Below, piece by piece: positions 3,630-53,222 of a stretch of 64,000 nucleotides of DNA. The position numbers were made by a program, and so were the translations under genes. The DNA comes from Cellulomonas endophytica (lineage in GTDB: Bacteria > Actinomycetota > Actinomycetes > Actinomycetales > Cellulomonadaceae): the NCBI RefSeq assembly GCF_004123805.1, contig NZ_RWJX01000001.1:1-64000 (forward strand). Direction: 5' to 3'. Below the pieces are notes generated by a model. It saw only the letters and a list, made by a program, of their open reading frames with translations. It had not been told where the DNA came from and did not search any database. Positions within the stretch are counted from its first letter, which is position 1, and every line of letters starts with the position of its first letter.

Positions 3630-5222
3630 ATGGAGGTCGCAGGCACCCTGGCGGTCGTCGCCGTCGCGGTGGTCGTCCTGGTCGTGCTCGTCGTCGTCGC
3701 GCTCGTCTACGCCAAGGTGCGGTTCAAGATCGCCACGCCGGACGAGGCGCTCATCATCACCGGGCGCAAGAGCGGCACCCCGGTCATCAACCCCGAGACC
3801 GGCGACGAGACCACCGACCTGTCCGGCCAGCGCGTCGTCATCGGGGGCGGCACGTTCGTCAAGCCCGTCTTCGAGCAGGTCGTGCGCCTGTCGCTGGCGT
3901 CCCAGAGCTTCCCGGTGGCCGCGGAGGACGCGACGACGAAGAGCGGCGTCGGCGTCACGCTGCGCAGCATCGCGGTCGTGAAGGTGGGCGGCACCGAGCG
4001 GATGGTCCGGGCCGCCGCGCAGCGGTTCGCCGGCCGCGGCCAGGAGCAGGTCATCGAGCAGCAGACGAGCGAGGTGCTCGTCGGCGTGCTGCGCACCATC
4101 GCGGGCACCCTGACCGTCGAGTCGATCCTCTACGAGCGCCAGGACTTCTCGAAGGAGGTCAAGGACATCGCCGTGCCCATGCTCGCCGAGCGCGGCCTCG
4201 TCCTGGAGAACTTCGAGATCCAGACCGTGGAGGACTCGGGCAACTACATCCGCAACCTCGGCCGGCCGCGCGCCGCCGCCGTGGCGCGCGACGCGGAGAT
4301 CGCCGAGGCGCAGGCCCGGCAGGAGAGCACGGAGCGCTCGAACGAGGCCGCCGTGCAGATCGCCGAGTCCAACAAGGCCCTGGCCCTGCGCAACGCCCAC
4401 ATCGAGCAGGAGACGGCCACCGCGCGCGCCGAGGCGGAGGCGGCGAAGGAGCGCGCCGAGGCCGAGGCCGCCCAGTCCGTGCTCGTCCAGCAGGAGCAGG
4501 TCGCCGTGCGGCGCGCGGCGCTGCGCGAGCAGGAGCTCCAGACGGAGGTCCGCAAGCCGGCGGAGGCCCGCACCTACGAGGCCGCCCAGCAGGCCGACGC
4601 GCGCAAGTACGCCGCCGAGCAGGAGGCGGAGTCCGCCAAGACGGCCGCGATCCGCAAGTACGAGGCCGAGGCCCTGCGCACGACCGCCCAGGCGGACGCC
4701 GAGGCGGCCGCGGCTCGCGCCCGTGCCGAGGCGGCGCTCGTCGAGCAGCAGCGCCGCGCCGAGGGCGCCCTCGCGCTCGCGAAGGCCGAGGCGGACGGCG
4801 TCCGGGCCCGCGGCGAGGCCGAGGCCGCGTCGGAGCGCGCCAAGGGCGAGGCCCGGGCCGCCGCCATCAAGGCCGAGGCGGACGCCTACCAGGTGTTCCC
4901 CGAGTCGGCGCGACTGCAGATGGTGCTGGACGCCCTGCCCAAGGTCGCGCAGCCGTACGCCGACGCGCTCGCGAGCATCGACGGCATCACGATCATCGAC
5001 AAGGACGGCGCGTCGCGGGTGACCGGCCAGGTCGCCACGGGGGTCCAGGAGCTGACGGCCCTGCTCAAGGCCCAGACGGGGATCGACCTCGGCCGCCTGG
5101 TCGGCGGCGGCACCGGCGGGACGGGCGGTCCGGAGAGGACGTCCGGCGCGCCTGCCGACCCCGCCGAGGACGGCGCGTCCCGTGGCCTGACCGACGGGCC
5201 CGTGCTCGACGGGGCCCGCTGA
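3630..5222 (+). CDS. Flotillin-like SPFH/band 7 membrane-microdomain protein
   Basis: This 530-residue protein starts at an ATG behind a strong CGGAGGAG. A single N-terminal membrane anchor (about residues 1-27) leads into an SPFH/band 7 domain (about 30-220, including DEALIITGRKSG). A long Ala/Glu/Arg-rich coiled coil (about 220-430) follows, with many AEA and AEAE repeats. The C-terminal part (DGITIIDKDG) resembles the oligomerisation end of flotillins. Flotillins form ring-like scaffolds that organise membrane domains. The gene stands alone, 209 bases after the lipoprotein gene; no NfeD-type partner is visible. Confidence 0.9.
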   Translation: MEVAGTLAVVAVAVVVLVVLVVVALVYAKVRFKIATPDEALIITGRKSGTPVINPETGDETTDLSGQRVVIGGGTFVKPVFEQVVRLSLASQSFPVAAEDATTKSGVGVTLRSIAVVKVGGTERMVRAAAQRFAGRGQEQVIEQQTSEVLVGVLRTIAGTLTVESILYERQDFSKEVKDIAVPMLAERGLVLENFEIQTVEDSGNYIRNLGRPRAAAVARDAEIAEAQARQESTERSNEAAVQIAESNKALALRNAHIEQETATARAEAEAAKERAEAEAAQSVLVQQEQVAVRRAALREQELQTEVRKPAEARTYEAAQQADARKYAAEQEAESAKTAAIRKYEAEALRTTAQADAEAAAARARAEAALVEQQRRAEGALALAKAEADGVRARGEAEAASERAKGEARAAAIKAEADAYQVFPESARLQMVLDALPKVAQPYADALASIDGITIIDKDGASRVTGQVATGVQELTALLKAQTGIDLGRLVGGGTGGTGGPERTSGAPADPAEDGASRGLTDGPVLDGAR

Positions 5223-5264: not shown

Positions 5265-5675
5265 TCAGCTCACGGGGTCGTAGGGGTCCGGCTCGTCCGG
5301 GTCGTCCGGGTAGTCCGGGTAGTCCGGGTAGTCGTCCTCCACCGAGCAGAGGATGACGTGGCTCAGGTCCTTGCCGGAGTAGTGCGTGTACACCGCACCG
5401 GGGACCGGGTCCTCGACGACCGTGCGGGCACCGCTGCCGGAGCCGGCCTTGAGCACGAGGACGGTCCAGACGCTGCCCGCGGGCGGCTGCGGCACCGTGA
5501 AGGAGCCGATGCCGTCGACGAGCTCGGTCTTCGTGCAGGAGGCGTCGTAGAGCGCCTCCCAGTAGGCCTCCGTGTTCTGGGTCGGGACGACGGCGGCGCT
5601 CGCGGGGGCGGCGGCGGCGCCGGCCAGCGCGACGCCGAGGACGGCGGCGGTGAGGGTACGACGAAGGGCGGGCAT
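5265..5675 (-). CDS. Small secreted protein with Asp-Pro-Tyr repeat tail
   Basis: This 136-residue protein starts at ATG 5675 behind AGGAGG. It has a clear Sec signal peptide (MPALRRTL, hydrophobic stretch, cleavage probably after ASA near residue 28). A small globular region with two cysteines (in DASCTKTEL and VILCSVED) follows; these could form a disulfide. The protein ends in an acidic low-complexity tail of PDY/PDD/PDE units. I do not recognise the family. The tail could bind metal ions or cell-wall material, but that is inference. The gene is convergent with the flotillin gene, and the next rightward gene starts 263 bases upstream. Confidence 0.75.
   Translation of the reverse strand: MPALRRTLTAAVLGVALAGAAAAPASAAVVPTQNTEAYWEALYDASCTKTELVDGIGSFTVPQPPAGSVWTVLVLKAGSGSGARTVVEDPVPGAVYTHYSGKDLSHVILCSVEDDYPDYPDYPDDPDEPDPYDPVS
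5294..5332. repeat. 9-bp tandem repeat encoding the acidic PDY tail
   Basis: Units of the form TCGTCCGGG or TAGTCCGGG repeat about four times in a row. Read on the minus strand, they encode the Tyr/Asp-Pro-Asp units at the end of the small secreted protein. Because the unit is three codons long, a change in copy number would lengthen or shorten the tail without shifting the frame. Confidence 0.7.
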
Positions 5676-5937
5676 GGCTCCTCCTGGCGTGGTCGGACGA
5701 GCCGGACGGCGGGACCGGGGACCACGTCGTGCCCGATCTGCCCGTTTCGTCAGGGTCCTGCGGACGGTCCTGGACTGCCGCCGCCCGGCAGGGTGCGGGG
5801 ACGATCTCACCCGGTCGACGGAGGCCGGGTCGGCCCGACCTCCGCGTTTCGGCGCGACAGACGCCAGGAGCAGAAGTGACGATCAGGCGGAGCCGCCGGG
5901 AGCACCCCCGGTCCCCCACCGCCGCCGGAGCGACCCC

Positions 5938-7757: not shown

Positions 7758-8145
7758 GAGGACCTCCGGGGCTCGCGGCGCCGGCGCCCGCTGCCCCTGC
7801 GCCCGCTGCCCCTGCGCCCGCCTACCCCTGCGCTCCGTGGTGCCCCCCTCCCCCCCGGTCCGCCGTCCCGCCGGTCCCCGACCGCCTCGTCCGCCCGGCC
7901 TGCCCCGGCCTCACGGCGTGCGCCGGCTGCACGGGCGCGACGCCCGGCTCCGGTGAGGGCACCGGCGCGCCGCGCTCCCGCCTGCCATCTCCCTGGTCGA
8001 GGAACGGCGCCGCCCCCGCGCCTCGCGGCGGGCGGCGCGTGATCCGTGCCGTGCTCCGTGCTCCCAGGCCACCAGGTCTCCGGCGGGCCGGCAACCGGAC
8101 ACGGTGCCCGGCGCGTCGACCAGCACGGGCAACCCCGGAGCCCGC
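7758..8145. other. Intergenic region with 15-bp repeat, no gene seen
   Basis: These 388 bases separate the end of the uracil-DNA glycosylase gene from the start of the next leftward gene. I find no frame with a plausible start, ribosome-binding site and protein-like composition. A GC-rich 15-base unit starting GCCCGCTGCC repeats twice, plus one degenerate copy, at 7786-7831. The promoter of the 7757 gene should lie here, but I cannot place it. Confidence 0.5.
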
Positions 8146-8889
8146 TCAGGCGGTGGCGAGGGCCCGTGCCCGGGCGAGGACGGCGTCGAGCATCGCGGGC
8201 GTGAGGCGGCCGGTGAAGGTGTTCTGCTGGCTGACGTGGTAGCAGCCCAGCAGGGTGAGCCGCCGCCCGTCGGGGCCGTCCAGGACCACCTCGGCACCGT
8301 GCCCGAACGCCGGCCGCGGCCGCGGCACGGCCCAGCCGAGGTCGCGCAGGGTCGCCAGCAGCGCGACCCAGCCGAAGCCCCCGAGCACGACGGCGACGAC
8401 CGGGTCGACGAGCTCCACCTCCCGCGCGAGGAACGGCGCGCACGTGCGGCGCTCCTCGGGCGTCGGCACGTTGGCCGGCGGTGCGCACCGGACCGGCGCC
8501 GTCATGCGTGCCCCGAGGAGCGTGAGCCCGTCCCCGGCGTGCACGGAGGTCGGCCGGTCCGCCAGGCCCGCGCGGTGCAGCGCGGCGACGAGGACGTCCC
8601 CGGACCGGTCGCCGGTGAACATCCGGCCCGTGCGGTTCGCGCCGTGCGCGGCGGGGGCCAGCCCCACCACGAGCACGCGCGCGGCCGGGTCCCCGAAGCC
8701 CGGCACGGGCCGTGCCCAGTAGGTCTCCTCGCGGAAGGCCGCCCGCCGCTCCCGTCCCACGGTCTCGCGCCAGGCGACGAGGCGCGGGCAGGCGCGGCAG
8801 CCCGTGAGCAGCGCGTCGAGCGCCGCGAGGTCCCCGGCCCCCGCCGCCCGCGCGGGCAGGGCCGCCGGGTCCGGCGCGCCGTCAGGCAC
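8146..8889 (-). CDS. Family 5 uracil-DNA glycosylase (UdgB type)
   Basis: This 247-residue enzyme removes uracil and other deaminated bases from DNA at the start of base-excision repair. The sequence shows the [4Fe-4S] cysteine pattern (CRACPRL near the N-terminus, later RCAPP and RTCAPF). The family-5 motif A appears as [14 protein letters not shown] and motif B as [13 protein letters not shown]. Most members have GG where this one has GA. The GTG start (8889) lies inside the end of the upstream phosphatase gene (8-base overlap) behind GGGAGGGG, so translation is coupled. Confidence 0.92.
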
Positions 8890-10444
8890 CCGGCGCGCCC
8901 CTCCCGGGCCGGGCCAGCGCGACGACGCACACGTCGTCCCGCTCGGCCCCCGGGTCGGGCAGCGCGGCGGAGACGAGCGCGGCCAGCCCGCCACCGAGGC
9001 CGCCCGCCCGGCCGCCCTCGAGCGCGGTGCGCAGCCGCGGCGCCAGGGCGGCGAGCGCGTCGAGCCCGTCGGACAGGGGCCGGTCCCGCCGCTCGACGAG
9101 ACCGTCCGTGTAGAGCAGGAGCGTCGAGCCCGGCGCGAGGCGGGCCTCGGCCTCGCCGCGCACGCCGTCGGCGGGCCGCAGCCCCAGCGGCGTCGAGCGC
9201 CCGTCCCACAGGTGGTGCACGTCGCCCGCGGCGTCGAGGAGCAGCGGTGGCGGGTGCGCGGCGACGGCGTACCGCAGCCGGCCGGTGACGAGGTCCACCT
9301 CGGCGTAGGCCATCGTCGAGAGCATGCCCGCCCCCGTGGCGGTGACGAACCGGTCGGCGCGGTCGAGCACCTCCGCCGGCCGCGCCCCCGGCCCGGCGAC
9401 GGCCCGCACCGCGCTGCGCAGGCGGCCCATCGCGGTGGCCGCCTCGAGCCCGCGCCCGACGACGTCCCCCACGGCGAGCGCGAGCCGGTCCTCGTCGACC
9501 CGGAAGGCGTCGTACCAGTCGCCGCCCACCTCCAGCGACGCCACGCCCGGCCGGTAGAGGGTCGCCAGCCGCATCCGCGGGTCCACCGGCTCACGGGTCG
9601 CGAGCATGGCGAGCTGCAGCCGGTGGGCGACCGAGACGTTCTCGTCGAGCAGCCGGGCGCGCTCCAGCGCGGTGCCCGCCGCCCGGCCGACGGCCTCGAG
9701 CACGTCGACGTCGAGGGGGTCGGCGCCGGCCGCGGCCGACGGCGCGACCGCGAGGACGCCCTCGGTGCGCTCGCGCCCCGGCAGGGCGACGACGACCGGA
9801 CCGCCCGGCCCGTGCGGCTGCGCGGGGCCGGCGGCGGCCGGCGTGGTCAGCAGGGCGGTGAGTGCCGCGACGGACGCGGCGTCGCCCGTGCTCCGCTCGA
9901 GGGGCGTGCCCGCCTCGTCGAGCACCCGCACGACCGCCGCCCCCGCCCCGAGCTCGCGCGAGGCCGCCAGGAGCAGCGCGTCCGCGACGCCGGAGACCCG
10001 GAACGCGCCGGCCAGGGCGGTCGAGGTCCGGTGCAGCGCCCGCAGCCGCTGCGCGGAGGCCTCGGCGGCGCGGCGGGCGGCGTCGATCTCGCGCTCGTAC
10101 CGGGAACGCTCGGCCCCGACGACGAGCGCGACCTCGACGCCCGGGGTGTCGTCGGGACCCGGTCCGACGACGGCCGTGAGGAGCACCGGGAGCCGACCCC
10201 CGGGCGTGGCGAGCGCGAGGGCGACCTCCTCGACCCGGCCCTGCGCGTGGAGGATCGGCGCGAGGTGCGTCTCCCAGTAGATGCGCCCGCCGGGCGTGAG
10301 GAGCTGCTCCAGGCGGACCCGGCCGACCGTCGCCGACCGGGTGCGGGACGTCCAGCGCAGGACCGTGCGGTTGGCGTCGACCACCGTGCCGTCGCGGTCG
10401 AGCCGCAGCAGGGCGACGGCGCCCCCGTCCCACCCGCCCGTCAC
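8882..10444 (-). CDS. PAS-GAF-SpoIIE protein phosphatase, RsbP-like partner of RsbQ
   Basis: This 520-residue protein has a PAS-like sensor domain (about 1-118, containing [13 protein letters not shown]), a GAF domain (about 135-300) and a PP2C/SpoIIE phosphatase (about 315-510). The metal-binding motifs [16 protein letters not shown] and DDVCVVAL are intact. In Bacillus, RsbP dephosphorylates the anti-anti-sigma factor RsbV under energy stress and needs the hydrolase RsbQ. Here the start GTG overlaps the stop of an RsbQ-like gene by four bases (GTGA). The added GAF domain is not in Bacillus RsbP. Its STAS-domain target is not in this window. Confidence 0.9.
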
Positions 10445-11241
10445 GCCGCGCCCACCCAGGCCCGCATCGCCTCCACGAGCTGCGCGGGGGCGCTGAGGTT
10501 CGGCGTGTGGCCGACCGTGTCGAGCACGACGAGCCGGCTGCCCGCGAGGTGCTCGTGCACGTAGCGCCCCACCTCCGGCGGCGCGATGGCGTCCTCGCGG
10601 GACTGGACGACGAGCGCCGGCGTCCGCACCCGCGCGAGGTCGGCGCGGCTGTCCGAGAGGAAGGTCACGCGCGCGAAGCGCCGGGCGATGGCGGGGTCGG
10701 CGCGGCAGAACGAGGCCGTCAGCTCCTCCCCGAGCTCGGGCCGGTCCGGCCGGCCGACGATGACGGGGGCGATGAAGCGGGACCACCCGAGGTAGTTGTC
10801 GTCCATCGTCGTCAGCAGGTCGTCGATCTCGGCGCGCGTGAAGCCGCCCCGGTAGCCCTCGTCGTCGACGTACCGGGGGCTGGGGCAGACGAGGACGAGC
10901 CGCTCGACGAGGTCGGGCCGGGCCGCCGCGACGAGGCACACCACCATGGCGCTCACGGAGTGCCCGACGAGCACGGCCGGCCCGGTCCCGAGCGCCTCCA
11001 GCACCTCGACGAGGTCCTGCGCGTACCCCTCCAGCGCGGCGTGCCGGACGGGGTCGTACGCGCCCGCGTCGCTGCCGCCGGCGCCCACGAGGTCGAGGAG
11101 GACGACGTCGTGCGTGCCCGTGAACGCCGGCGTCACGAACCGCCACATGGCCTGGTCGCACCCGAACCCGTGCACGAGGACGAGCGGGGGCCCGTCCCGG
11201 CGCCCCGCGCGGGTCACGTTGTTGCGGCGCAGCACGTCCAC
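10441..11241 (-). CDS. rsbQ: RsbQ-like alpha/beta hydrolase (KAI2/D14-type), activator of the adjacent PAS phosphatase
   Basis: This 266-residue protein follows Bacillus RsbQ nearly end to end: RNNV at the N-terminus, GFGCDQAMW, GAGGSDAGAYD, the nucleophile elbow GHSVSAM, CPSPRYVDD, FCRADPAIARRFA and FLSDSRADL. The catalytic triad falls at Ser95, Asp217 and His245, close to Ser96, Asp219 and His247 of RsbQ. RsbQ and its plant relatives KAI2 and D14 bind or hydrolyse a small hydrophobic signal and act on a partner protein. The partner here should be the overlapping PAS-SpoIIE phosphatase. The start is GTG 11241; GTG 11235 is also possible because no strong ribosome-binding site decides it. Confidence 0.92.
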   Translation of the reverse strand: MDVLRRNNVTRAGRRDGPPLVLVHGFGCDQAMWRFVTPAFTGTHDVVLLDLVGAGGSDAGAYDPVRHAALEGYAQDLVEVLEALGTGPAVLVGHSVSAMVVCLVAAARPDLVERLVLVCPSPRYVDDEGYRGGFTRAEIDDLLTTMDDNYLGWSRFIAPVIVGRPDRPELGEELTASFCRADPAIARRFARVTFLSDSRADLARVRTPALVVQSREDAIAPPEVGRYVHEHLAGSRLVVLDTVGHTPNLSAPAQLVEAMRAWVGAA

Positions 11242-11283
11242 GCTGGCACCCTAGGGCGTGGGCGGCCCGGTCGGCAGCGCGGC

Positions 11284-13410
11284 TCAGAGGCGGCCGACGA
11301 GCTCGGCGTGCGCGCCGTCCCGCGCGTAGACCGGCAGCGTCTCCAGGGGCGCGTCCGCCTCGACCCACGTCCCGCCGGGCAGCACCTCCCCCGTCCGCAG
11401 GCTCGTCCACGACGCCCCCGCCGGCAGGTAGACCCGCCGCGAGCGCGCGCCGGCCTCCAGCACGGGGGCGACGAGCAGCGACGCCCCGTGGAGGAACTGG
11501 TCGGCGACCCCCCACGCCTGCGGGTCGTCGGGGAACTCGTGGAAGAGCGCGCGCATGACCGGCTGCCCGTCCTCGTGCGCCTGCCGCATCGCCTCCCGGG
11601 TGTGGTCGCGCAGCGCCTCCCGCAGGTGCACGAACCGCTCCAGCACCCCGTACACCCTCTCCCCGAACGACCAGAGCTCGTTGCCGGCGCCGGAGGGGTT
11701 GCGCAGGGTGCCGTCGGCGGCGCGCACCTCGCGCGCGGGCTGCCGGTCGCCGTGCAGGCGCATGACGGGCAGGAACGTGCCCATCTGGAACCAGCGCACG
11801 AGCAGCTCGTGGAACGCGGGGTCGTCGGTGCGGCCGCCGGCGAACCCCCCGATGTCCGTGGTGAACCACGGGATGCCCGCCAGGCCCATGTGCAGGCCCG
11901 CGACGAGCTGGCGGCGCAGCGTCGGGAAGTCGGAGTGGATGTCCCCGGACCACACGAGCGCCCCGTAGCGCTGGGACCCGGCCCAGGCGCACCGCACGAG
12001 GCTGACGACCTGCGTCTCCCCCGCCGCCGTGAGGCCCTCGTGGAAGGCGCGGGCGAAGGTCTGGGGGTAGAGGTTCGCGACCTGCGCCCCCGCACCGGCG
12101 TGGAAGGCGTAGGCGTCCCACTGGTACAGGCCGAACTCGGGCTCGGCCTCGTCGAGCCAGAAGAGGCGGATGCCGTGGCGGGCGTACCCCTGCACGCAGC
12201 GGTCCCAGAGGAAGGCGCGCGCCTCGGGGTTCGTCGTGTCGACGAAACGGCTCGGGCCGCCGAACCACATCTGCACGTCGATGCCGCGCCGCGTGCGCAC
12301 GAGCAGGTCGTGCCGGTCCATCTCGGCGTAGTTCTCCGAGTCGAGCCCGACCTGCGGCCAGACGGACACCATGAGCTCGACGCCCGCCTCCCGCAGCTCG
12401 GCGACCATCGCCGCCGGGTCGGGCCAGAACTCCTCGTCGAAGCGGTAGTCGCCCAGGTGGGGCCAGTGGAAGAAGTCGGCGACCACGACGTCCAGCGGCA
12501 GCCCGCGGCGCCGGTGCTCGCGCACGACGGCGAGCAGCTCCTCCTGGTGCGTGTAGCGCAGCTTGCACTGCCAGAAGCCCAGGCCGTGCTCGGGCATCAT
12601 CGGCGCGTGACCCGTCGCCTCGGCGTAGCGGCGCGTGATCTCCGCCGGGGTCCGGCCCACCGTCACCCACCAGTCGATCTGGCGGCAGCTCTCCGCCGCC
12701 CACTCCGTGCGGTTGCGCGCGAACGTCGCGCGCCCGACCGCCGGGTTGTGCCAGAGGAAGCCGTAGCCCGCGCTGGAGACGACGAACGGCACGCTCGCCT
12801 GGGAGTTGCGGTGCGCCAGCTCGAGGGTGGCCCCCTTGAGGTCGAGCAGGTCGTCCTGGTACTGCCCCATGCCCGCGAGGTGCTCGTCGGCGGGCGTCTC
12901 CAGCGCGAGCACGGCGCTCACCGACTCGCCCTCCAGCGGCCGCAGCTGGCGCGCGCGCAGGGCGAGGGCGCCGCTCTCGCCGACCTCGCGGAGCAGGACG
13001 CGACCGTCGGCGTCGCGGACCTCGATGCGGCAGTCGTGGCGCAGGCCGCCCGTCTGCATGTGCTCCACCGTGCGGGCGGTGAGCACGACGACGGCCCGCC
13101 CGTGGCGCAGCTCCGCCCGGTACCGCTCGGGCCCCTCGTCGACGAGCGCCGTCAGCCTCACCGTCGCGCCCGCCGCCGTCACCGGGTCGGGGGGCAGGAG
13201 CGCCCAGTCGGCGTCGACGACCGGCCCGAGCGCGGCGCGCACGCGGACGGAGTCCGCGCCCCACGGCTCGACGAGGAGCGTCTCGCCGCCGCCGCGCCAG
13301 CGCACGGCGGTGCCGAGGACGTCGAAGGGCCCGAGGTGGTCGGTGGTCGTCGCGGTGGATGTCGTCGCGGTGGATGTCGTCGCGGTGGATGTCGTCGCGG
13401 TGGATGTCAC
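11284..13410 (-). CDS. GH31 family alpha-glycosidase (alpha-xylosidase/alpha-glucosidase type)
   Basis: This 708-residue protein has an N-terminal beta-sandwich (about 25-250), a GH31 TIM barrel (about 270-580) and C-terminal sheet domains. The nucleophile is probably Asp420 in LFWLDEAEPE and the acid/base Asp490 in VWSGDIHSDF; FFHWPHLGDYRFD forms part of the substrate site. There is no signal peptide, so it should act on imported oligosaccharides in the cytoplasm. The GTG start (13410) overlaps the YesL-like stop by four bases (GTGA). The first 22 residues are four STATT-like repeats. The substrate is uncertain: alpha-xylose or alpha-glucose side chains would fit. It is the last gene of the operon. 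Confidence 0.88.
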   Translation of the reverse strand: MTSTATTSTATTSTATTSTATTTDHLGPFDVLGTAVRWRGGGETLLVEPWGADSVRVRAALGPVVDADWALLPPDPVTAAGATVRLTALVDEGPERYRAELRHGRAVVVLTARTVEHMQTGGLRHDCRIEVRDADGRVLLREVGESGALALRARQLRPLEGESVSAVLALETPADEHLAGMGQYQDDLLDLKGATLELAHRNSQASVPFVVSSAGYGFLWHNPAVGRATFARNRTEWAAESCRQIDWWVTVGRTPAEITRRYAEATGHAPMMPEHGLGFWQCKLRYTHQEELLAVVREHRRRGLPLDVVVADFFHWPHLGDYRFDEEFWPDPAAMVAELREAGVELMVSVWPQVGLDSENYAEMDRHDLLVRTRRGIDVQMWFGGPSRFVDTTNPEARAFLWDRCVQGYARHGIRLFWLDEAEPEFGLYQWDAYAFHAGAGAQVANLYPQTFARAFHEGLTAAGETQVVSLVRCAWAGSQRYGALVWSGDIHSDFPTLRRQLVAGLHMGLAGIPWFTTDIGGFAGGRTDDPAFHELLVRWFQMGTFLPVMRLHGDRQPAREVRAADGTLRNPSGAGNELWSFGERVYGVLERFVHLREALRDHTREAMRQAHEDGQPVMRALFHEFPDDPQAWGVADQFLHGASLLVAPVLEAGARSRRVYLPAGASWTSLRTGEVLPGGTWVEADAPLETLPVYARDGAHAELVGRL
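13351..13410. repeat. 15-bp tandem repeat, four copies, at the start of the GH31 gene
   Basis: The unit CGCGGTGGATGTCGT occurs at 13351, 13366, 13381 and 13396; the last copy ends CAC and contains the GTG start codon and the TGA stop of the upstream gene. On the minus strand it encodes a five-residue Ser-Thr-Ala-Thr-Thr unit four times. Fifteen bases is five codons, so slippage would change the N-terminal length without breaking the frame. Confidence 0.9.
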
Positions 13411-45439: not shown

Positions 45440-47572
45440 TCAGACCCGGACGGCGAGGACCGCGATGTCGTCCCCGTCGCCGCCGAGCGCGCCCAGCACG
45501 TGGTCGCACAGGCCGTCGGGGTCGTCGGGACCCTCCGCCAGGGCCGCGGCGAGCCGCTCCAGGCCGCGCTCGAGGTGCTCCCCGCGCCGCTCCACGAGCC
45601 CGTCCGTGTAGGCCAGGAGCAGGGACCCGGGGGCGAGGTGGTGGCGGGCGGTGCGGCGCGACCGGGGCTGGACCCCGAGCAGCAGGTCCTGCGCGTCGTC
45701 GAGCGCCTCGACCCGCCCCGACGGGTCGCGCAGGAGGAACGGGGGGTGGCCCGCGCTGGAGTAGGTGAGCGTCCAGCCGCCGTCGTCCGCGGGGTCGAGC
45801 CGGCCGTACGCGAGCGTGGCCATCGTCGTCAGGCCGAGGCCGCTCATGAGCTGGTCGACCCGCTCGAGGACGTCGCCGGTGGAGCCCGTGCCCGCCCCCC
45901 AGGCGGCGGCGCGCAGCAGCCCGCGCAGGTGGCCCATCCGCGCGGCGGCCAGCACGTCGTGCCCCACGACGTCCCCGATGGCGACGCCGAGCGAGCCGTC
46001 GGGCAGGTCGATGAGCTCGTAGAAGTCGCCGCCGACCTGCGCGCCGGTCTCGCTGGCGCGGTAGCGCGCGGCGGCGGCGACGCGGTCGAGCACGGGCAGC
46101 TCCGGCAGGAGGCTGTGCTGCAGCGTCTCCGCGATCCGGTGCTGCGCCCGGAAGAGCCGGGCGTTGTCGAGGATGATCCCCGCCCGCCGGGCGAGGTCGA
46201 CCGCGACCTCGAGGTCCTCGTCGGTGTGCCGGGGGCTCTCCGGGCCGCGCACGAGCACGAGCAGGTCCGTGATGCGCTCGCGCCCCGGCACGGCGACGAG
46301 CAGGACGGAGGACCGGCCCAGGCCGTCGCCGGTGGGCAGCACGTCGGGGTCCCGGACCCACGTGCGGCGCTCGTCCAGGTGGCGCGGGTCGTCGAAGTCG
46401 CTGATCCGGCGCGCGTGCGCCTCCCCGAGGAGCAGCGGCACGACGGGTCCCGGGACGAGCGTCTCGCGAACCCCCTCGACCCAGCGCTCGAGGTCGGGGG
46501 TGCGGCCCGGGTCGCGGTGCAGGGCGGCGGTCTCCGCGACCCCGCCGCGGTCGTCCGTCGTCACGAGCACCGCCCAGTCGGCGAGGCGCGGGACGAGCAG
46601 CCGGGTGAGGCGCCGCCGGCACTCGTCGACGTCGAGGCTGCCCGTGAGCTCGCTCGTCGCCTCGACGAGGAGGTCCAGCCGCTGCTGGGCGCGCTCGGCG
46701 GCCACGCGTGCCCGGCGCTCCGCCTCCAGCGCGCGGTCGCGCTCCGCGTCCGCGGCCACGCGGGCCGTCACGTCCGCCTGGATGCCGACGAAGTGGGTCA
46801 GCTCCCCGTCCGGCCCGTGGATCGGGCTCATGGACACCTGGTTCCAGAAGGCCGTCCCGTCCTTGCGGTAGTTGAGGATCGTCACGGTGGCGTCCTCCTC
46901 CGCCTCGATCGCCCGCCGCAGCGCCGCCCGCGCCTGCGGGTCCGTGGCCGGGCCCTGGAGGAAGCGGCAGTTGCGGCCCAGCACCTCCTCCGCGGCGTAC
47001 CCCGTGGTCGCCTCGAACGCCGGGTTGACCCAGACGAGCGGGACGTCCTCGTCCTGCGCGTCCGCCACGGTGAAGGACAGCCCCGTGGCGACGACCGCGC
47101 GGTCGCGCAGCTGGGCGCTCGCCTGCGCGGCGTCGAGCGCGGCCTGGGCGGCCTCGCGCCGGCTGAGCGGCAGGAAGACGACGAGCGCGTGCCCCTCGAG
47201 CATCGGGGCGTCGGCCATCGGCAGCGCGACGACCCACAGCGGCAGCCGCTGACGGCCCATGGCGCTCCCCCGCGCCGCCGAGACCGCCTCGCCCACGACC
47301 GGCACGGACCGCGCCACCTTCGACAGCGGGTGGTCCGTCTCCGACAGCTCGGCGCCGTCGAGGTCGCGCAGGTCCGCCAGGTCCGACCACGCGTCGAGGG
47401 CGACCGGCAGGCGGGCGCCGGGGGCGAGCTGGTCCGCCACCGGGTTCGTGTAGACGACGCGGCGGCTGCGCAGGTCGACGAGCAGCACGGCGGCCGGGGC
47501 GTCCCCGGTCACGAGGGCGAGCTCGAGCGAGGAGGTCAGCGCGCCGGCTCGCGCGCGCTGCTCGACCGTCAC
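45440..47572 (-). CDS. LOV-domain SpoIIE protein phosphatase, putative blue-light sensor
   Basis: This 710-residue protein has a PAS-like region (about 1-140), a LOV domain (about 155-270), a short coiled coil, a GAF domain (about 300-450) and a SpoIIE/PP2C phosphatase (about 485-708). The LOV signature GRNCRFLQG with the adduct-forming Cys202, RKDGTAFWNQVSMSPI and FVGIQADVT is complete. Phosphatase motifs GGDFYELI, IGDVVGHD and GDDIAVLAV are intact. Blue light should form a flavin-cysteine adduct and alter dephosphorylation of a STAS protein. GTG 47572 is chosen for its spacing to GAGG; GTG 47578 is possible. Confidence 0.9.
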   Translation of the reverse strand: MTVEQRARAGALTSSLELALVTGDAPAAVLLVDLRSRRVVYTNPVADQLAPGARLPVALDAWSDLADLRDLDGAELSETDHPLSKVARSVPVVGEAVSAARGSAMGRQRLPLWVVALPMADAPMLEGHALVVFLPLSRREAAQAALDAAQASAQLRDRAVVATGLSFTVADAQDEDVPLVWVNPAFEATTGYAAEEVLGRNCRFLQGPATDPQARAALRRAIEAEEDATVTILNYRKDGTAFWNQVSMSPIHGPDGELTHFVGIQADVTARVAADAERDRALEAERRARVAAERAQQRLDLLVEATSELTGSLDVDECRRRLTRLLVPRLADWAVLVTTDDRGGVAETAALHRDPGRTPDLERWVEGVRETLVPGPVVPLLLGEAHARRISDFDDPRHLDERRTWVRDPDVLPTGDGLGRSSVLLVAVPGRERITDLLVLVRGPESPRHTDEDLEVAVDLARRAGIILDNARLFRAQHRIAETLQHSLLPELPVLDRVAAAARYRASETGAQVGGDFYELIDLPDGSLGVAIGDVVGHDVLAAARMGHLRGLLRAAAWGAGTGSTGDVLERVDQLMSGLGLTTMATLAYGRLDPADDGGWTLTYSSAGHPPFLLRDPSGRVEALDDAQDLLLGVQPRSRRTARHHLAPGSLLLAYTDGLVERRGEHLERGLERLAAALAEGPDDPDGLCDHVLGALGGDGDDIAVLAVRV

Positions 47573-47634
47573 GGGCACATCCTCACCTGGACGCCGCCGG
47601 CGCCGCCACCGCTGCTACCCGTGGGGGTGTCCCC

Positions 47635-50166: not shown

Positions 50167-51024
50167 TCACCCGCCGAACGGCAGGACCGGCTTTCCCGGC
50201 ACCTCGACGCGGACGCGGAACACCGCCCCGTCGGCCTCGCCCGGCGCCTCGAGCCCCTCGCGCGAGGTCGTGACGAACAGGTCGCGCCCGTCGGGACCGC
50301 CGAGCGCGCAGGCGGTCGTGTTCGCCCCGGGGAGCCCGACCTCCGCCAGCGTCCGCCCCTCGGGCGACGACAGGCGGACGACGCCGTCGCCGTAGAACGC
50401 CACCCACACGTTGCCCGCCGCGTCGACGGTGAGGCCGTCCGGCCGCCCCTCGCCCCAGTCGCGCCACGGCCGCCGGTCCCTCAGCCGGCCGTCCTGCACG
50501 GTGAAGACGTCCGTGCGGTGCGTGTGCGTGTCGTCGTAGTACGCGAGCGTGCCGTCCGGCGAGAGGTCGATGCCGTTCGACACCGTCGCGTCGGGGACGA
50601 CCACCGACACCTCGAGGGACGGCGTCACCCGGTACAGCCGCGCCGCCCCGGGCGTCCCCTCGTACGCCATCGACCCCGCGTAGAGGTTGCCCGCGGTGTC
50701 GCAGCCGCCCTCGTTGAGACGCACCGCCGGGTCCTCCCACAGGGGCGGCAGCGCCCGCGGCGGCTCGTCGACGCGCTCGGCGAGCCCGAGGCCGCGTTCC
50801 AGCCCGACGACGTACCCGCCGCGCGCCCGGGGCCGGACGAACGCCGCCACGTCGCCGACGTGGAGCCGGTCGACCGCGCCGTCGGCCCCCACGGTGAGCA
50901 GGTCGCCGGCCAGCATGTCGACGAACCGCAGGCCGCCCCACGCCGGCGACCACACCGGCCCCTCCGCGTGGAAGGCGACCGGCCCCGTCAGCGGCTCCAC
51001 GGTGCCGGTCGGTGGCGTCGTCAT
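50167..51024 (-). CDS. SMP-30/gluconolactonase family protein
   Basis: This 285-residue six-bladed beta-propeller contains EGPVWSPAWGGLRFVDM, RLNEGGCDTAGNLYAGSM, VSNGIDLSPDGTLAYYDDT and RPDGLTVDAAGNVWVAFY. These supply the Glu, Asn and Asp metal ligands of the family. Members hydrolyse sugar lactones. The ATG start at 51024 overlaps the stop of the upstream phosphatase gene (ATGA), so the two are translated together. Confidence 0.9.
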   Translation of the reverse strand: MTTPPTGTVEPLTGPVAFHAEGPVWSPAWGGLRFVDMLAGDLLTVGADGAVDRLHVGDVAAFVRPRARGGYVVGLERGLGLAERVDEPPRALPPLWEDPAVRLNEGGCDTAGNLYAGSMAYEGTPGAARLYRVTPSLEVSVVVPDATVSNGIDLSPDGTLAYYDDTHTHRTDVFTVQDGRLRDRRPWRDWGEGRPDGLTVDAAGNVWVAFYGDGVVRLSSPEGRTLAEVGLPGANTTACALGGPDGRDLFVTTSREGLEAPGEADGAVFRVRVEVPGKPVLPFGG

Positions 51025-53222
51025 CTCTGCTCCCTGCTGTCGTCGGTCGGGGGGATGCGCGTCGTCGGTCCGGTGGGGCCGGTGGCCCCCGGACGGTCCG
51101 GGGCGTCGGGCGGGACGTCCGACGGCACCTGGTTCGGGCCCGCCTGGGCGGGCCGGGGCTCGTCCTGCCGGTGCAGCCGGACGCCGACGAGCGCCACGTC
51201 GTCCGTGGGCCGGGCGGGGAGCAGCCGCGCCACGAGCGTGTCGAGCAGCGCCTTCAGCGGCTGGTCGCGCGCCGCGGGCTCGGCGAGGACGTCCCGCAGG
51301 CGCCGCGTGCCCTCCGCGAGGGGCTCGCCGCGGCGCTCGACGAGGCCGTCCGTGTACAGCAGGACGGTGCTGCCCCGCTCCAGCAGCAGGGTGTGCTCCT
51401 CGCGCGGGCTGTCGGGCACGACGCCGAGCAGGGCGTCGGTCGCGCCCGGCGCGACGGCGTCGACGGTCCCGTCGGGGTGCGCGACGACCGGCGCGGGGTG
51501 GCCGGCGCTGGACCACACCACGCGGGACACCCCGCGCGCCCGCTCGTCGGGGGTCTGCTCCACGCGGGCGACGACCGCCGTCGCGATCGTCGGCGAGCCC
51601 AGCGTCCGCAGCGTCCCGTCGACCCGGCGGAGCAGCTCGGCCGGACCGGCACCCGTCGCCACGGCGACGCCCCGCAGGAGGGCGCGCAGCTGGCCCATCT
51701 GCGCGGCGGCCTCCATGTCGTGCCCGACCACGTCCCCGACGACGAGCACCGTGCGGCCGTCGCCCTGGAGGAACGCGTCGTACCAGTCGCCGCCGACACG
51801 CGCGGCCTCCGCGGCCGGCTCGTACCGCACCGCGATCTCCACGTGGTCGGGCTCCGGCGGGTCGGACAGCATCGCCCGCTGCAGGGCCTCCGCCACGTGG
51901 ACCTGCTCGCCGTACAGGCGGGCGTTGTCCAGCGCGAGGCCGGCCCGGGCGGCGACCTCCGTCGCCGTGCGCAGGTCCTCCTCGTCGAACCCCTCGCGCG
52001 CCGGGCCGGTGAAGAGGCTCAGCGCCCCGACCGTGCGGCCGCGGGCGCGCATGGGCAGCACCGCCGCGGACCGGGGAGCGAGCACCGCGAGCAGCTCCCG
52101 GGCCTCGCCCGAGCGCAGCACGGTCGCGATCCGCTCGTGCGCCGGCTCCGGCACGCGGACCGGGAGGCCGCCCTCGAGCGCGGCCCGCAGGAAGGACGCG
52201 TCGTCGAGCGCGGTCAGGCGCGAGGCCGTGTACCGCTCGACGAGGGGCCGGTAGGCGGGGTCCACGTGCCAGGAGGCGATGTCGCGGACCCGCCGGCCCG
52301 CCGGCCCGTGCTCGTCGACGAGGGTGACCACGCACCAGTCGGCGAGCGCCGGCACGATCGTGCGGGCCAGGAGGCCCACCGCCCGCTCCGCGTCGAGGGT
52401 CTCCCCCAGGCGTCCGGAGACCTCCGCCAGCAGCTCGAGGCGGCGGCGGGCGCGCTCCGCGGCCTCCTGCGCACGGTGGCGCGCGCTGACGTCGAGGAAG
52501 TAGACCGACAGCCCCTCCGGCCCCGGCCAGGCGCGCACCTCGTACCAGCGGTCGAGCGGCGCGGGGTAGTAGGCGTCGAACGCGACGGGCTCCCCCGTCG
52601 CGAGGGCGTGCCGGTAGTGGCGCTCGAAGTCCGTGCCGGGCGCGGCCGGGAAGAGGGACCAGACGTCCCCCCCGAGGAGCTCCTCCCGGCCGCGGCCGAG
52701 CAGGCGCTCCGCCTCGCCGTTGACGAACGTGAACCGCCAGTCGTGGTCGAGGGCGATGAACGCCGTGGGCATCGCCTCGAGCAGCCGTGCGACGCGCAGG
52801 GCGGCGTCGGAGACGTCGGTGGTGTCGAACGCCGACCCGACGACGCGGACCGGCGTGCCGTCGAGGTCCAGCAGCACCCGCCCGCGGGCCGCGAACCAGC
52901 GCGTGCGGCCGGCGGGGGTGGTGATGCGGTACTCGATGGCGAAGTCGCCGCCCGTCGGCATCGCGGCGCCGATCGCGGCGTGCACCCCGGCCCGGTCGTC
53001 CGGGTGCACGATGGCGTCGAAGTCCTCGATCCGCCCGCCCCAGCGGCTGCGGTCGAACCCCGCGAGCTCGAGCATCCGGTCCGACCAGCGCAGCTCGCCC
53101 GTGGCCAGGTCCCACTCGTAGGTGCCGATGCCGGCCGCCTCGATGGCGAGCCGGCCCAGGACGAGGTCCACGTCCGCGCGCGGCGCCGCGGCCGGGTGCT
53201 CCCCGGTGCCCTCGGTCCCCAT
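51021..53222 (-). CDS. PAS-PAS-GAF-SpoIIE protein phosphatase
   Basis: This 733-residue protein has two PAS domains (about 20-140 and 143-265), GAF (about 285-460) and SpoIIE/PP2C (about 490-690) with [16 protein letters not shown] and TDDVALVGV intact. The first PAS shows the PAS_3 pattern (FDAIVHPDDRAGV, EYRITTPAGRTRWF). There is no LOV cysteine, so the signal is unknown. A Pro-rich tail of about 40 residues ends the protein. It would dephosphorylate a STAS-domain protein. It leads the two-gene unit with SMP-30. Confidence 0.9.
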   Translation of the reverse strand: MGTEGTGEHPAAAPRADVDLVLGRLAIEAAGIGTYEWDLATGELRWSDRMLELAGFDRSRWGGRIEDFDAIVHPDDRAGVHAAIGAAMPTGGDFAIEYRITTPAGRTRWFAARGRVLLDLDGTPVRVVGSAFDTTDVSDAALRVARLLEAMPTAFIALDHDWRFTFVNGEAERLLGRGREELLGGDVWSLFPAAPGTDFERHYRHALATGEPVAFDAYYPAPLDRWYEVRAWPGPEGLSVYFLDVSARHRAQEAAERARRRLELLAEVSGRLGETLDAERAVGLLARTIVPALADWCVVTLVDEHGPAGRRVRDIASWHVDPAYRPLVERYTASRLTALDDASFLRAALEGGLPVRVPEPAHERIATVLRSGEARELLAVLAPRSAAVLPMRARGRTVGALSLFTGPAREGFDEEDLRTATEVAARAGLALDNARLYGEQVHVAEALQRAMLSDPPEPDHVEIAVRYEPAAEAARVGGDWYDAFLQGDGRTVLVVGDVVGHDMEAAAQMGQLRALLRGVAVATGAGPAELLRRVDGTLRTLGSPTIATAVVARVEQTPDERARGVSRVVWSSAGHPAPVVAHPDGTVDAVAPGATDALLGVVPDSPREEHTLLLERGSTVLLYTDGLVERRGEPLAEGTRRLRDVLAEPAARDQPLKALLDTLVARLLPARPTDDVALVGVRLHRQDEPRPAQAGPNQVPSDVPPDAPDRPGATGPTGPTTRIPPTDDSREQR

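Follow-up and report, generated by a model that had tools for sequence, protein, structure and literature searches.

A GAF-bearing RsbQ-RsbP-type sensor pair in Cellulomonas endophytica, from a genus with no detectable SigB-type sigma factor

What would an RsbQ-RsbP-type pair control in a genus in which no SigB is detectable? The question is raised by the window, i.e., the 64,000-nucleotide stretch of Cellulomonas endophytica DNA analyzed here, in which an alpha/beta hydrolase gene is followed by a phosphatase gene. The presence of the sensor where SigB is undetected suggests that sensing and output are separable, and makes the genus a clean place to seek other targets of the RsbQ-PAS module; according to the available text of a 2011 study (PMC3183031), its regulatory target is known in Bacillus subtilis only. 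It should be noted that the idea of the pairing is already known from that study (Nadezhdin et al. 2011), the available text of which describes 45 RsbQ-PAS modules, including phosphatase-type pairs in Streptomyces. Our main reading, to which we assign a probability of roughly 70%, is that the window encodes a bipartite RsbQ-PAS sensor with a PPM phosphatase as its output, which would dephosphorylate STAS proteins and thereby act on a partner-switch target other than SigB. The features considered are:

10441..11241, minus strand: RsbQ-type alpha/beta hydrolase, 266 aa, GTG start, triad S95/D217/H245
8882..10444, minus strand: RsbP-like phosphatase, 520 aa, GTG start, PAS - helix - GAF - helix - PPM (SpoIIE)
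10441..10444, minus strand: GTGA overlap of phosphatase start and hydrolase stop, common to both frames
10109..10432, minus strand: PAS domain, residues 5-112, with the conserved F-alpha segment
10007..10108, minus strand: helical linker, residues 113-146, the first 15 matching F-alpha in conservation, whichever the output type
9710..10006, minus strand: GAF-fold domain, residues about 147-245
9602..9709, minus strand: second helical linker, residues 246-281
8909..9496, minus strand: PPM/SpoIIE phosphatase domain, acidic motifs present
8146..8889, minus strand: uracil-DNA glycosylase, nearest PDB match 2d3y
11284..13371, minus strand: GH31 glycoside hydrolase, start codon picked by judgement, 42 bp upstream of the RsbQ-type hydrolase

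As judged from their sequences, the two genes are an RsbQ-RsbP-type pair and a member of the published module, because an RsbP-type PAS protein is encoded directly downstream of the hydrolase in all 90 distinct related loci, a constancy that applies only down to about 51% hydrolase identity. This conservation, with RsbQ as the best PDB match and a PAS-GAF-PPM protein downstream, upholds the pair proposed in the first-pass annotation of this DNA. The overlap of the two frames that it had claimed is also real (four bases, GTGA), and translational coupling of hydrolase and phosphatase is likely. The arrangement resembles the B. subtilis rsbQP operon (RsbQ structure, 1wom), in which a hydrolase with the same triad lies upstream of a PAS-PPM phosphatase, and it agrees with the module family, as described in the available part of PMC3183031, in gene order, in the N-terminal PAS with class residues and in a phosphatase output in a Gram-positive bacterium. 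The survey comprised 96 loci, those from genome contigs being the best 80 of 147 confirmed matches. Six genomes entered twice (L046-L051 repeat L064, L071, L080, L086, L072 and L085), and the sets of 91 below contain the window and 90 loci, with L046-L051 dropped; L067 and L069 represent one genome. Flank lengths vary and some flanks end at contig ends, such that absence of a neighbor means absence from the sequence examined; the calling of neighboring genes relied on a simple rule of codon G+C, which missed some. The downstream frames of L117, L137 and L139 were chosen by length, not by PAS match; contig ends truncate the downstream proteins of L062 and L116, and that of L095 is incomplete. 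A scan of positions 7900-11600 for promoters and terminators found nothing and is uninformative at this G+C.

By sequence comparison, the hydrolase is RsbQ-type, not D14-type. Its best PDB sequence match is RsbQ (1wom, E 2.4e-71, 243.8 bits), compared to 183.5 bits for D14 (4ih4), and identity is 45% over 256 residues with Bacillus RsbQ versus 40% over 242 residues with plant D14, in keeping with the near full-length resemblance claimed earlier. The predicted triad, also claimed, is identical in 91 of 91 aligned hydrolases (the window and 90 homologues). Among the 25 NCBIfam matches listed of 36, no model exceeded its cut-off for the hydrolase, the best score being 112.9 bits against a cut-off of 390. 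In a quick tree, a branch with support 100 unites RsbQ, Olei00960 and the 91 bacterial hydrolases, leaving outside D14 and 7ukb, the sole receptor-type rows in a tree with no KAI2 row. Together, the PDB and NCBIfam comparison, the tree and the identities place the protein nearer to RsbQ than to other alpha/beta hydrolases.

The PAS domain (PAS_4 match over the cut-off, 25.8 bits vs. 23.1) is the most N-terminal domain of the phosphatase, whose gene lies directly behind the RsbQ gene. Its residues N25 and P63 are the same in every one of the 91 downstream proteins, whichever the output domain (69 SpoIIE, 18 HisKA, 2 GGDEF and 2 cut by contig ends). Alanine changes of L48, F55, Y59 and E72 in the PAS domain of B. 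subtilis RsbP gave a null phenotype, according to the available text of PMC3183031; their equivalents in the window, assigned by spacing with the numbering of that paper and not by alignment to RsbP, are L49, Y56, H60 and E73, and P63 corresponds to P62. By spacing, then, the F-alpha residues of RsbP are conserved in the window, with other aromatic residues (Y56, H60) at the F55 and Y59 positions. The mean frequency of the commonest residue is 0.74 for F-alpha, 0.74 for residues 113-127 and 0.37 for residues 128-146; conservation of the first two segments fits the contact of RsbQ with PAS and linker that is predicted in the available part of PMC12143880. In contrast to B. subtilis, the hPhG motif, usually with a Cys (C10), is not kept: the window reads GAVA, without the proline that is nearly invariant in relatives. 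The C10A change had a modest effect only in B. subtilis (PMC3183031, available text). Linker residue 121 is D in the window and Leu in 74 of 91 proteins. The window sequence contains no DIT motif at the PAS end, as in the RsbP-PAS class.

Compared to B. subtilis RsbP, the window phosphatase has a GAF domain and a second helix between PAS and PPM, whereas in RsbP proper a helical linker alone joins these two. The GAF domain, an addition already claimed in the first pass, is genuine according to both sequence and model. Its GAF_3 match in the window is under the cut-off (18.5 bits vs. 27), and GAF_3 matches at E <= 0.01 were found in 20 of the 26 clade members. A fold search with the whole protein was swamped by the PPM domain; hence, the GAF region was modelled alone by AlphaFold (pLDDT 93.4), and this model yielded 11 PDB matches at E <= 0.001, nine titled GAF domain and two being chains of the dual-sensor histidine kinase 6oap. 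At the sequence level the domain marks one hydrolase clade, the single-GAF clade; in assigning GAF classes by spacing, a default starting position was used wherever the F-alpha pattern had no match. The SpoIIE match is over the cut-off (E 1.7e-41), and the acidic motifs of the PPM domain, which we take to be its metal ligands, are present. In both sequence and fold, the nearest PPM domain of solved structure is that of the PPM-RsbW structure of Rv1364c (3ke6), in which PPM is joined to HATPase_c_2; the window phosphatase has no such kinase domain. Clostridioides difficile RsbZ (tandem GAF-PPM) and Streptomyces coelicolor OsaC (GAF and PAS) are, like the window protein, GAF-bearing PPM phosphatases with helical linkers, with no RsbQ partner described for them in the available text of PMC12143880. 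The word GAF does not occur in the main text of PMC3183031 (Figure 2 itself excluded), and the literature matches listed, from a search outside which most subscription journals lie, include no description of this RsbP-GAF variant; as far as the available text of that paper goes, its module family appears to be extended here by PAS-GAF-PPM proteins, two-GAF forms and the fused kinase.

The genome of C. endophytica contains both STAS and RsbW-like genes, as the first pass had proposed to check: there are 8 STAS matches (7 over the cut-off) and 23 HATPase_c_2 matches (13 over the cut-off, by a model that also matches ordinary histidine kinases), along with 14 SpoIIE matches (13 over the cut-off). 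A DSxG-type serine is present in four of the five STAS proteins examined at full length. Among 68 SpoIIE-type loci, 12 have a same-strand STAS gene beside the pair: ten of these genes adjoin it directly, that of L105 follows a kinase gene, and that of L106 lies about 270 bp upstream. This STAS and kinase tally does not count an opposite-strand STAS match 4.4 kb away (L125), two more STAS matches (L121), weak kinase matches that fall within histidine kinases (L122, L133, L134) and one 8.5 kb away in L056. In L065 (Kineococcus) and L081 (a Frankiales MAG), the PAS-GAF-PPM protein is, as in Rv1364c, fused to HATPase_c_2 (an RsbW-type kinase), and a STAS gene with a DSGG or DSAG serine motif follows. 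Given the fused kinase and linked STAS in these two clade members, the most likely role of the window phosphatase is dephosphorylation of STAS proteins in trans, as input to a partner switch that does not involve SigB. No pair-linked STAS gene was found in any Cellulomonas or Georgenia locus examined. Identification of a cognate STAS protein by co-occurrence was rejected, since two STAS proteins of this genome are nearly genus-wide and neither tracks the pair (L165, at least 57% identity in 33 of 36 genus genomes including its own; L166, at least 50% in 35 of 36).

In the mechanism that we favor, the hydrolase would bind or convert a small molecule in its triad site, by analogy with B. subtilis, and would dock on the PAS F-alpha and the start of the next helix in a phosphatase dimer. 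The signal would pass down the helix-GAF-helix segment to the PPM domains, with GAF serving as a second input or as a dimer lever. The PPM domains would then dephosphorylate at least one stand-alone STAS protein whose gene lies elsewhere in the genome, countering RsbW-like kinases, as the linked genes of relatives suggest, and the output would be another partner-switch target, not SigB. STAS proteins are the likely substrate class, as indicated by the relatives with a fused kinase and a linked STAS gene; a few proteins could then suffice to reconstitute the module in vitro, providing a read-out for a ligand hunt.

A plainer alternative is the energy-stress route of B. subtilis, with a general-stress sigma factor activated by the pair. 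RsbQ is indeed the closest solved relative, and L065 and L081, of the same hydrolase clade, combine the fused kinase and linked STAS with a SigB-type sigma factor. However, the SigB/F/G-type model TIGR02980, a single family model that a strongly divergent partner-switch sigma could escape, had no match over the cut-off in any of the 36 genus genomes, own included, compared to 8 of 22 other genomes of the order; G040 and G051 score 204-213 bits, just under the cut-off. The best sigma matches of the own genome are, by reading, RpoD-like and WhiG/FliA-like. Among the 26 clade genomes scanned (a scan that took in L105 for its linked kinase), 24 also gave no match over the cut-off (two of these, G064 and G069, have no RpoD-level match and may be incomplete), leaving L065 and L081 only. 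Because this sigma type was not found in the genus, a Bacillus-like SigB output is unlikely here, and the pair probably controls something else. Regarding the history of the system, we consider it close to an even chance that the RsbQ-RsbP sensor persisted after the loss of SigB in Cellulomonas and its single-GAF relatives and was rewired, via the GAF-bearing phosphatase, to a partner switch whose output is not a sigma factor, the fused kinase and linked STAS being found only where the sigma factor remains. In the quick tree, L081 lies inside the clade, not at its base; thus, a single loss of kinase, STAS and SigB would be insufficient, and several losses or transfer would be needed.

The pair could also be a decaying copy that has diverged and lost signalling, consistent with the missing hPhG proline, with D121 and with a terminal hydrolase branch of 0.29 versus a median of 0.13 in the quick tree; we find this quite improbable, as the triad, the PPM acidic motifs, the F-alpha segment and the reading frames are all intact. 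Slightly more doubtful still is an analogue of the KAI2/D14 hormone receptors, by which a bacterium from a plant-litter genus would sense butenolides of plants: fold, triad and 40% identity are shared with D14, but the receptor-type rows fall outside the RsbQ branch, and such pairs are also found in Hymenobacter, Rhizobium, Pseudomonas and Mycobacterium. Membership of the hydrolase in the D14/KAI2 group was rejected on the same tree, in which D14 and 7ukb are the only rows of this kind, and the karrikin-type label given in the first pass is not supported. Coupling to the GH31 gene was likewise rejected, with no GH31 match in the 96 loci. Least credible is a unit of hydrolase, phosphatase and uracil-DNA glycosylase for stress and DNA repair, the shared transcript that the first-pass annotation had envisaged. 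The phosphatase and glycosylase frames overlap by 8 bases, and no terminator-like site was seen in the scan described above. Nevertheless, the coupling was rejected, the linkage not being kept in relatives: no glycosylase match was found in the examined flanks of the 96 loci, so that the linkage looks private to this genome and the enzyme is probably outside the sensor system. In all 11 other pair-bearing genomes searched, the glycosylase gene is either on a different contig or at a distance of at least about 0.5 Mb; eight genus genomes of that search that lack the pair carry it as well.

The hydrolase and phosphatase genes of the window have four bases, GTGA, in common:

11241 to 10441, minus strand: alpha/beta hydrolase of 266 residues (Pfam)
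10444 to 8882, minus strand: phosphatase of 520 residues (Pfam SpoIIE and PAS_4)

This pair truly belongs to a known module and shows a new architecture. The RsbQ-PAS family was described in 2011, and the available text of Nadezhdin et al. (PMC3183031) lists 45 such modules; our survey reproduces the module in more genomes. What is added is a hydrolase branch whose partner phosphatases carry one GAF domain between PAS and PPM (the single-GAF clade, which includes the window), and a missing SigB. The interest is therefore moderate, the family being known, yet both additions bear on the output of the module, which they turn into a testable question.

When PDB entries were ranked by sequence match to the hydrolase, RsbQ came first (1wom, 2.4e-71); next were Olei00960 (3qvm, 3.1e-63) and then 7ukb, with plant receptors appearing from 1e-53. 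Pairwise identity was 45% to RsbQ versus 40% to D14, and a quick maximum-likelihood tree (95 rows) united RsbQ and Olei00960 with 91 bacterial hydrolases on a branch with support of 100, leaving D14 and 7ukb outside; the RsbQ resemblance proposed in the first-pass annotation thus holds. Among further genomes, 15/35 in the genus and 1/22 elsewhere in the order have an orthologue (E below 1e-80). A contig search contributed 80 additional loci, the best 80 of 147 matches, from Actinomycetota, Pseudomonadota, Bacteroidota and Acidobacteriota. Once six duplicated genomes were dropped, 90 loci were left, which together with the window form our sets of 91. The catalytic triad is the same in all 91 hydrolases. 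The gene pair is likewise conserved in relatives: in the window and in 90/90 loci, the downstream gene encodes a PAS protein with invariant N25 and P63. The output domains of these 91 proteins are SpoIIE (69), HisKA (18) and GGDEF (2), and two proteins run off their contigs.

In the window phosphatase, Pfam detected SpoIIE (1.7e-41) and PAS_4 above the cut-off, and GAF_3 below threshold. In the AlphaFold model (mean pLDDT 90, input alignment of 26 sequences), a long helix (113-146) joins PAS to a small alpha/beta domain, and a second long helix (246-281) leads on to PPM. A separate model of the middle region (pLDDT 93.4) gave 11 PDB matches at E <= 0.001, nine titled GAF domain and two being dual-sensor histidine kinase chains; among single-GAF clade members, GAF_3 matched 20/26 and GAF_2 19/26 (E <= 0.01). 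The earlier three-domain reading (PAS, GAF, SpoIIE) is therefore correct. Two further large SpoIIE phosphatases lie in the window within 45 kb (45440-47578 and 51021-53222, both minus strand).

The spacing from the conserved PAS helix F-alpha to the PPM motif divides the phosphatases into forms without GAF (~114-143 residues), with one GAF (229-269) and with a long insert (at least 466). A single hydrolase branch (28 rows, support 99) matches the 27 single-GAF proteins plus one that is cut short, and has members in Cellulomonas, Actinotalea, Georgenia, Oceanitalea, Cellulosimicrobium, Isoptericola, Kineococcus and a Frankiales MAG; thus, phosphatase type and hydrolase type travel together. Within the genus of the window, 7/36 genomes have the single-GAF form, 9/36 the GAF-less form and 20/36 no orthologue (E below 1e-80). 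The long-insert forms (~466-625 residues from PAS to PPM) are paired with RsbQ hydrolases mostly in Blastococcus and Geodermatophilus (loci L089, L092, L093, L094, L108, L112, L113, L123, L124, L126, L128 and L130); of three scanned singly, L089 and L093 had two GAF matches and L094 one. A Kineococcus phosphatase (L065, 6795-8915) carries a long tandem PEH peptide repeat N-terminal to PAS.

In B. subtilis RsbP, according to the part of PMC3183031 available, alanine at L48, F55, Y59 or E72 abolishes signalling, and F55A and Y59A weaken the interaction with RsbQ; by spacing, the window equivalents are L49, Y56, H60 and E73. The accessible text of PMC12143880 predicts that RsbQ contacts the RsbP PAS together with the first part of the linker. 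The C. endophytica hydrolase would grip the same surfaces, in which case equal conservation of F-alpha and linker start is expected. Across the 91 proteins, conservation was 0.74 for F-alpha, 0.74 for the first 15 post-PAS residues and 0.37 for the next helix stretch (0.69, 0.69 and 0.33 in the 19 whose output domain is a kinase or cyclase). The window PAS has lost the near-invariant proline of the hPhG motif, and the window phosphatase has D121 where most relatives have Leu.

A same-strand STAS gene accompanies the pair in 12/68 SpoIIE-type loci:

directly adjacent to the pair: L065, L081, L095, L100, L101, L104, L114, L119, L121, L129
behind a kinase gene: L105
~270 bp upstream: L106

Two of these, L065 and L081, belong to the clade of the window and encode PAS-GAF-PPM-HATPase_c_2 fusions followed by the STAS gene. 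Given such neighbours and fusions, STAS proteins are best read as the probable substrate of the phosphatase. The suggested search for STAS and RsbW-like genes found both in the window genome, but none linked to the pair. STAS-only proteins with targets outside the canonical sigma route are described in the available portion of a review (PMC8256260).

The classical output of the module was not found in the genus: a single SigB/F/G family model gave no match above cut-off in 36 genomes, and 8/22 other genomes of the order had one, two more being within about 30 bits. The window genome has 14 SpoIIE matches, yet no SigB-type sigma above cut-off; its three best sigma matches look RpoD-like and WhiG/FliA-like. 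Among 26 scanned single-GAF clade genomes (of which G064 and G069 may be incomplete), a SigB-type sigma occurred in two, those of L065 and L081, both with the fused kinase and linked STAS (Fisher p 0.003, shared ancestry ignored). The L105 genome, scanned for its linked kinase, has such a sigma, and the same scan found none in the L089 and L092 genomes (long-insert form). The reading we favour is that the sensor was retained while SigB, the kinase domain and the linked STAS were lost. In the quick tree, L065 stands at the base of the clade and L081 inside it (surrounding support 90-92); a single loss would therefore be insufficient, and several losses or a transfer would be needed.

The first-pass annotation also coupled the pair to a uracil-DNA glycosylase, so that stress sensing and DNA repair would share a transcript. 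The glycosylase gene does overlap the phosphatase end by 8 bases, and its nearest PDB match is 2d3y, which we take to be a family 5 uracil-DNA glycosylase. We rejected it as part of the system: it had no match in the available flanks of 96 loci, and among 35 genomes it is either on a different contig or at least about 0.5 Mb away in 11/11 other pair-bearing ones, while 8 genomes of the genus that lack the pair carry it too. A local rearrangement is the simplest explanation for the position of the glycosylase in the window. The upstream GH31 gene, with no match in the 96 loci, was likewise rejected. In seven loci, all Cellulomonas (L063, L064, L066, L071, L072, L082 and L086), tblastn placed a flotillin-like gene immediately upstream of the hydrolase and in the same orientation (L063, the sole one scanned with Pfam, matches Band_7); the flotillin-like gene of the window (3630 to 5222, plus strand) has just 37-39% identity to these. 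At 5265-5810 (minus strand), the window has an ORF that, by reading, encodes a small, putatively secreted protein whose acidic tail is made up of YPD repeats.
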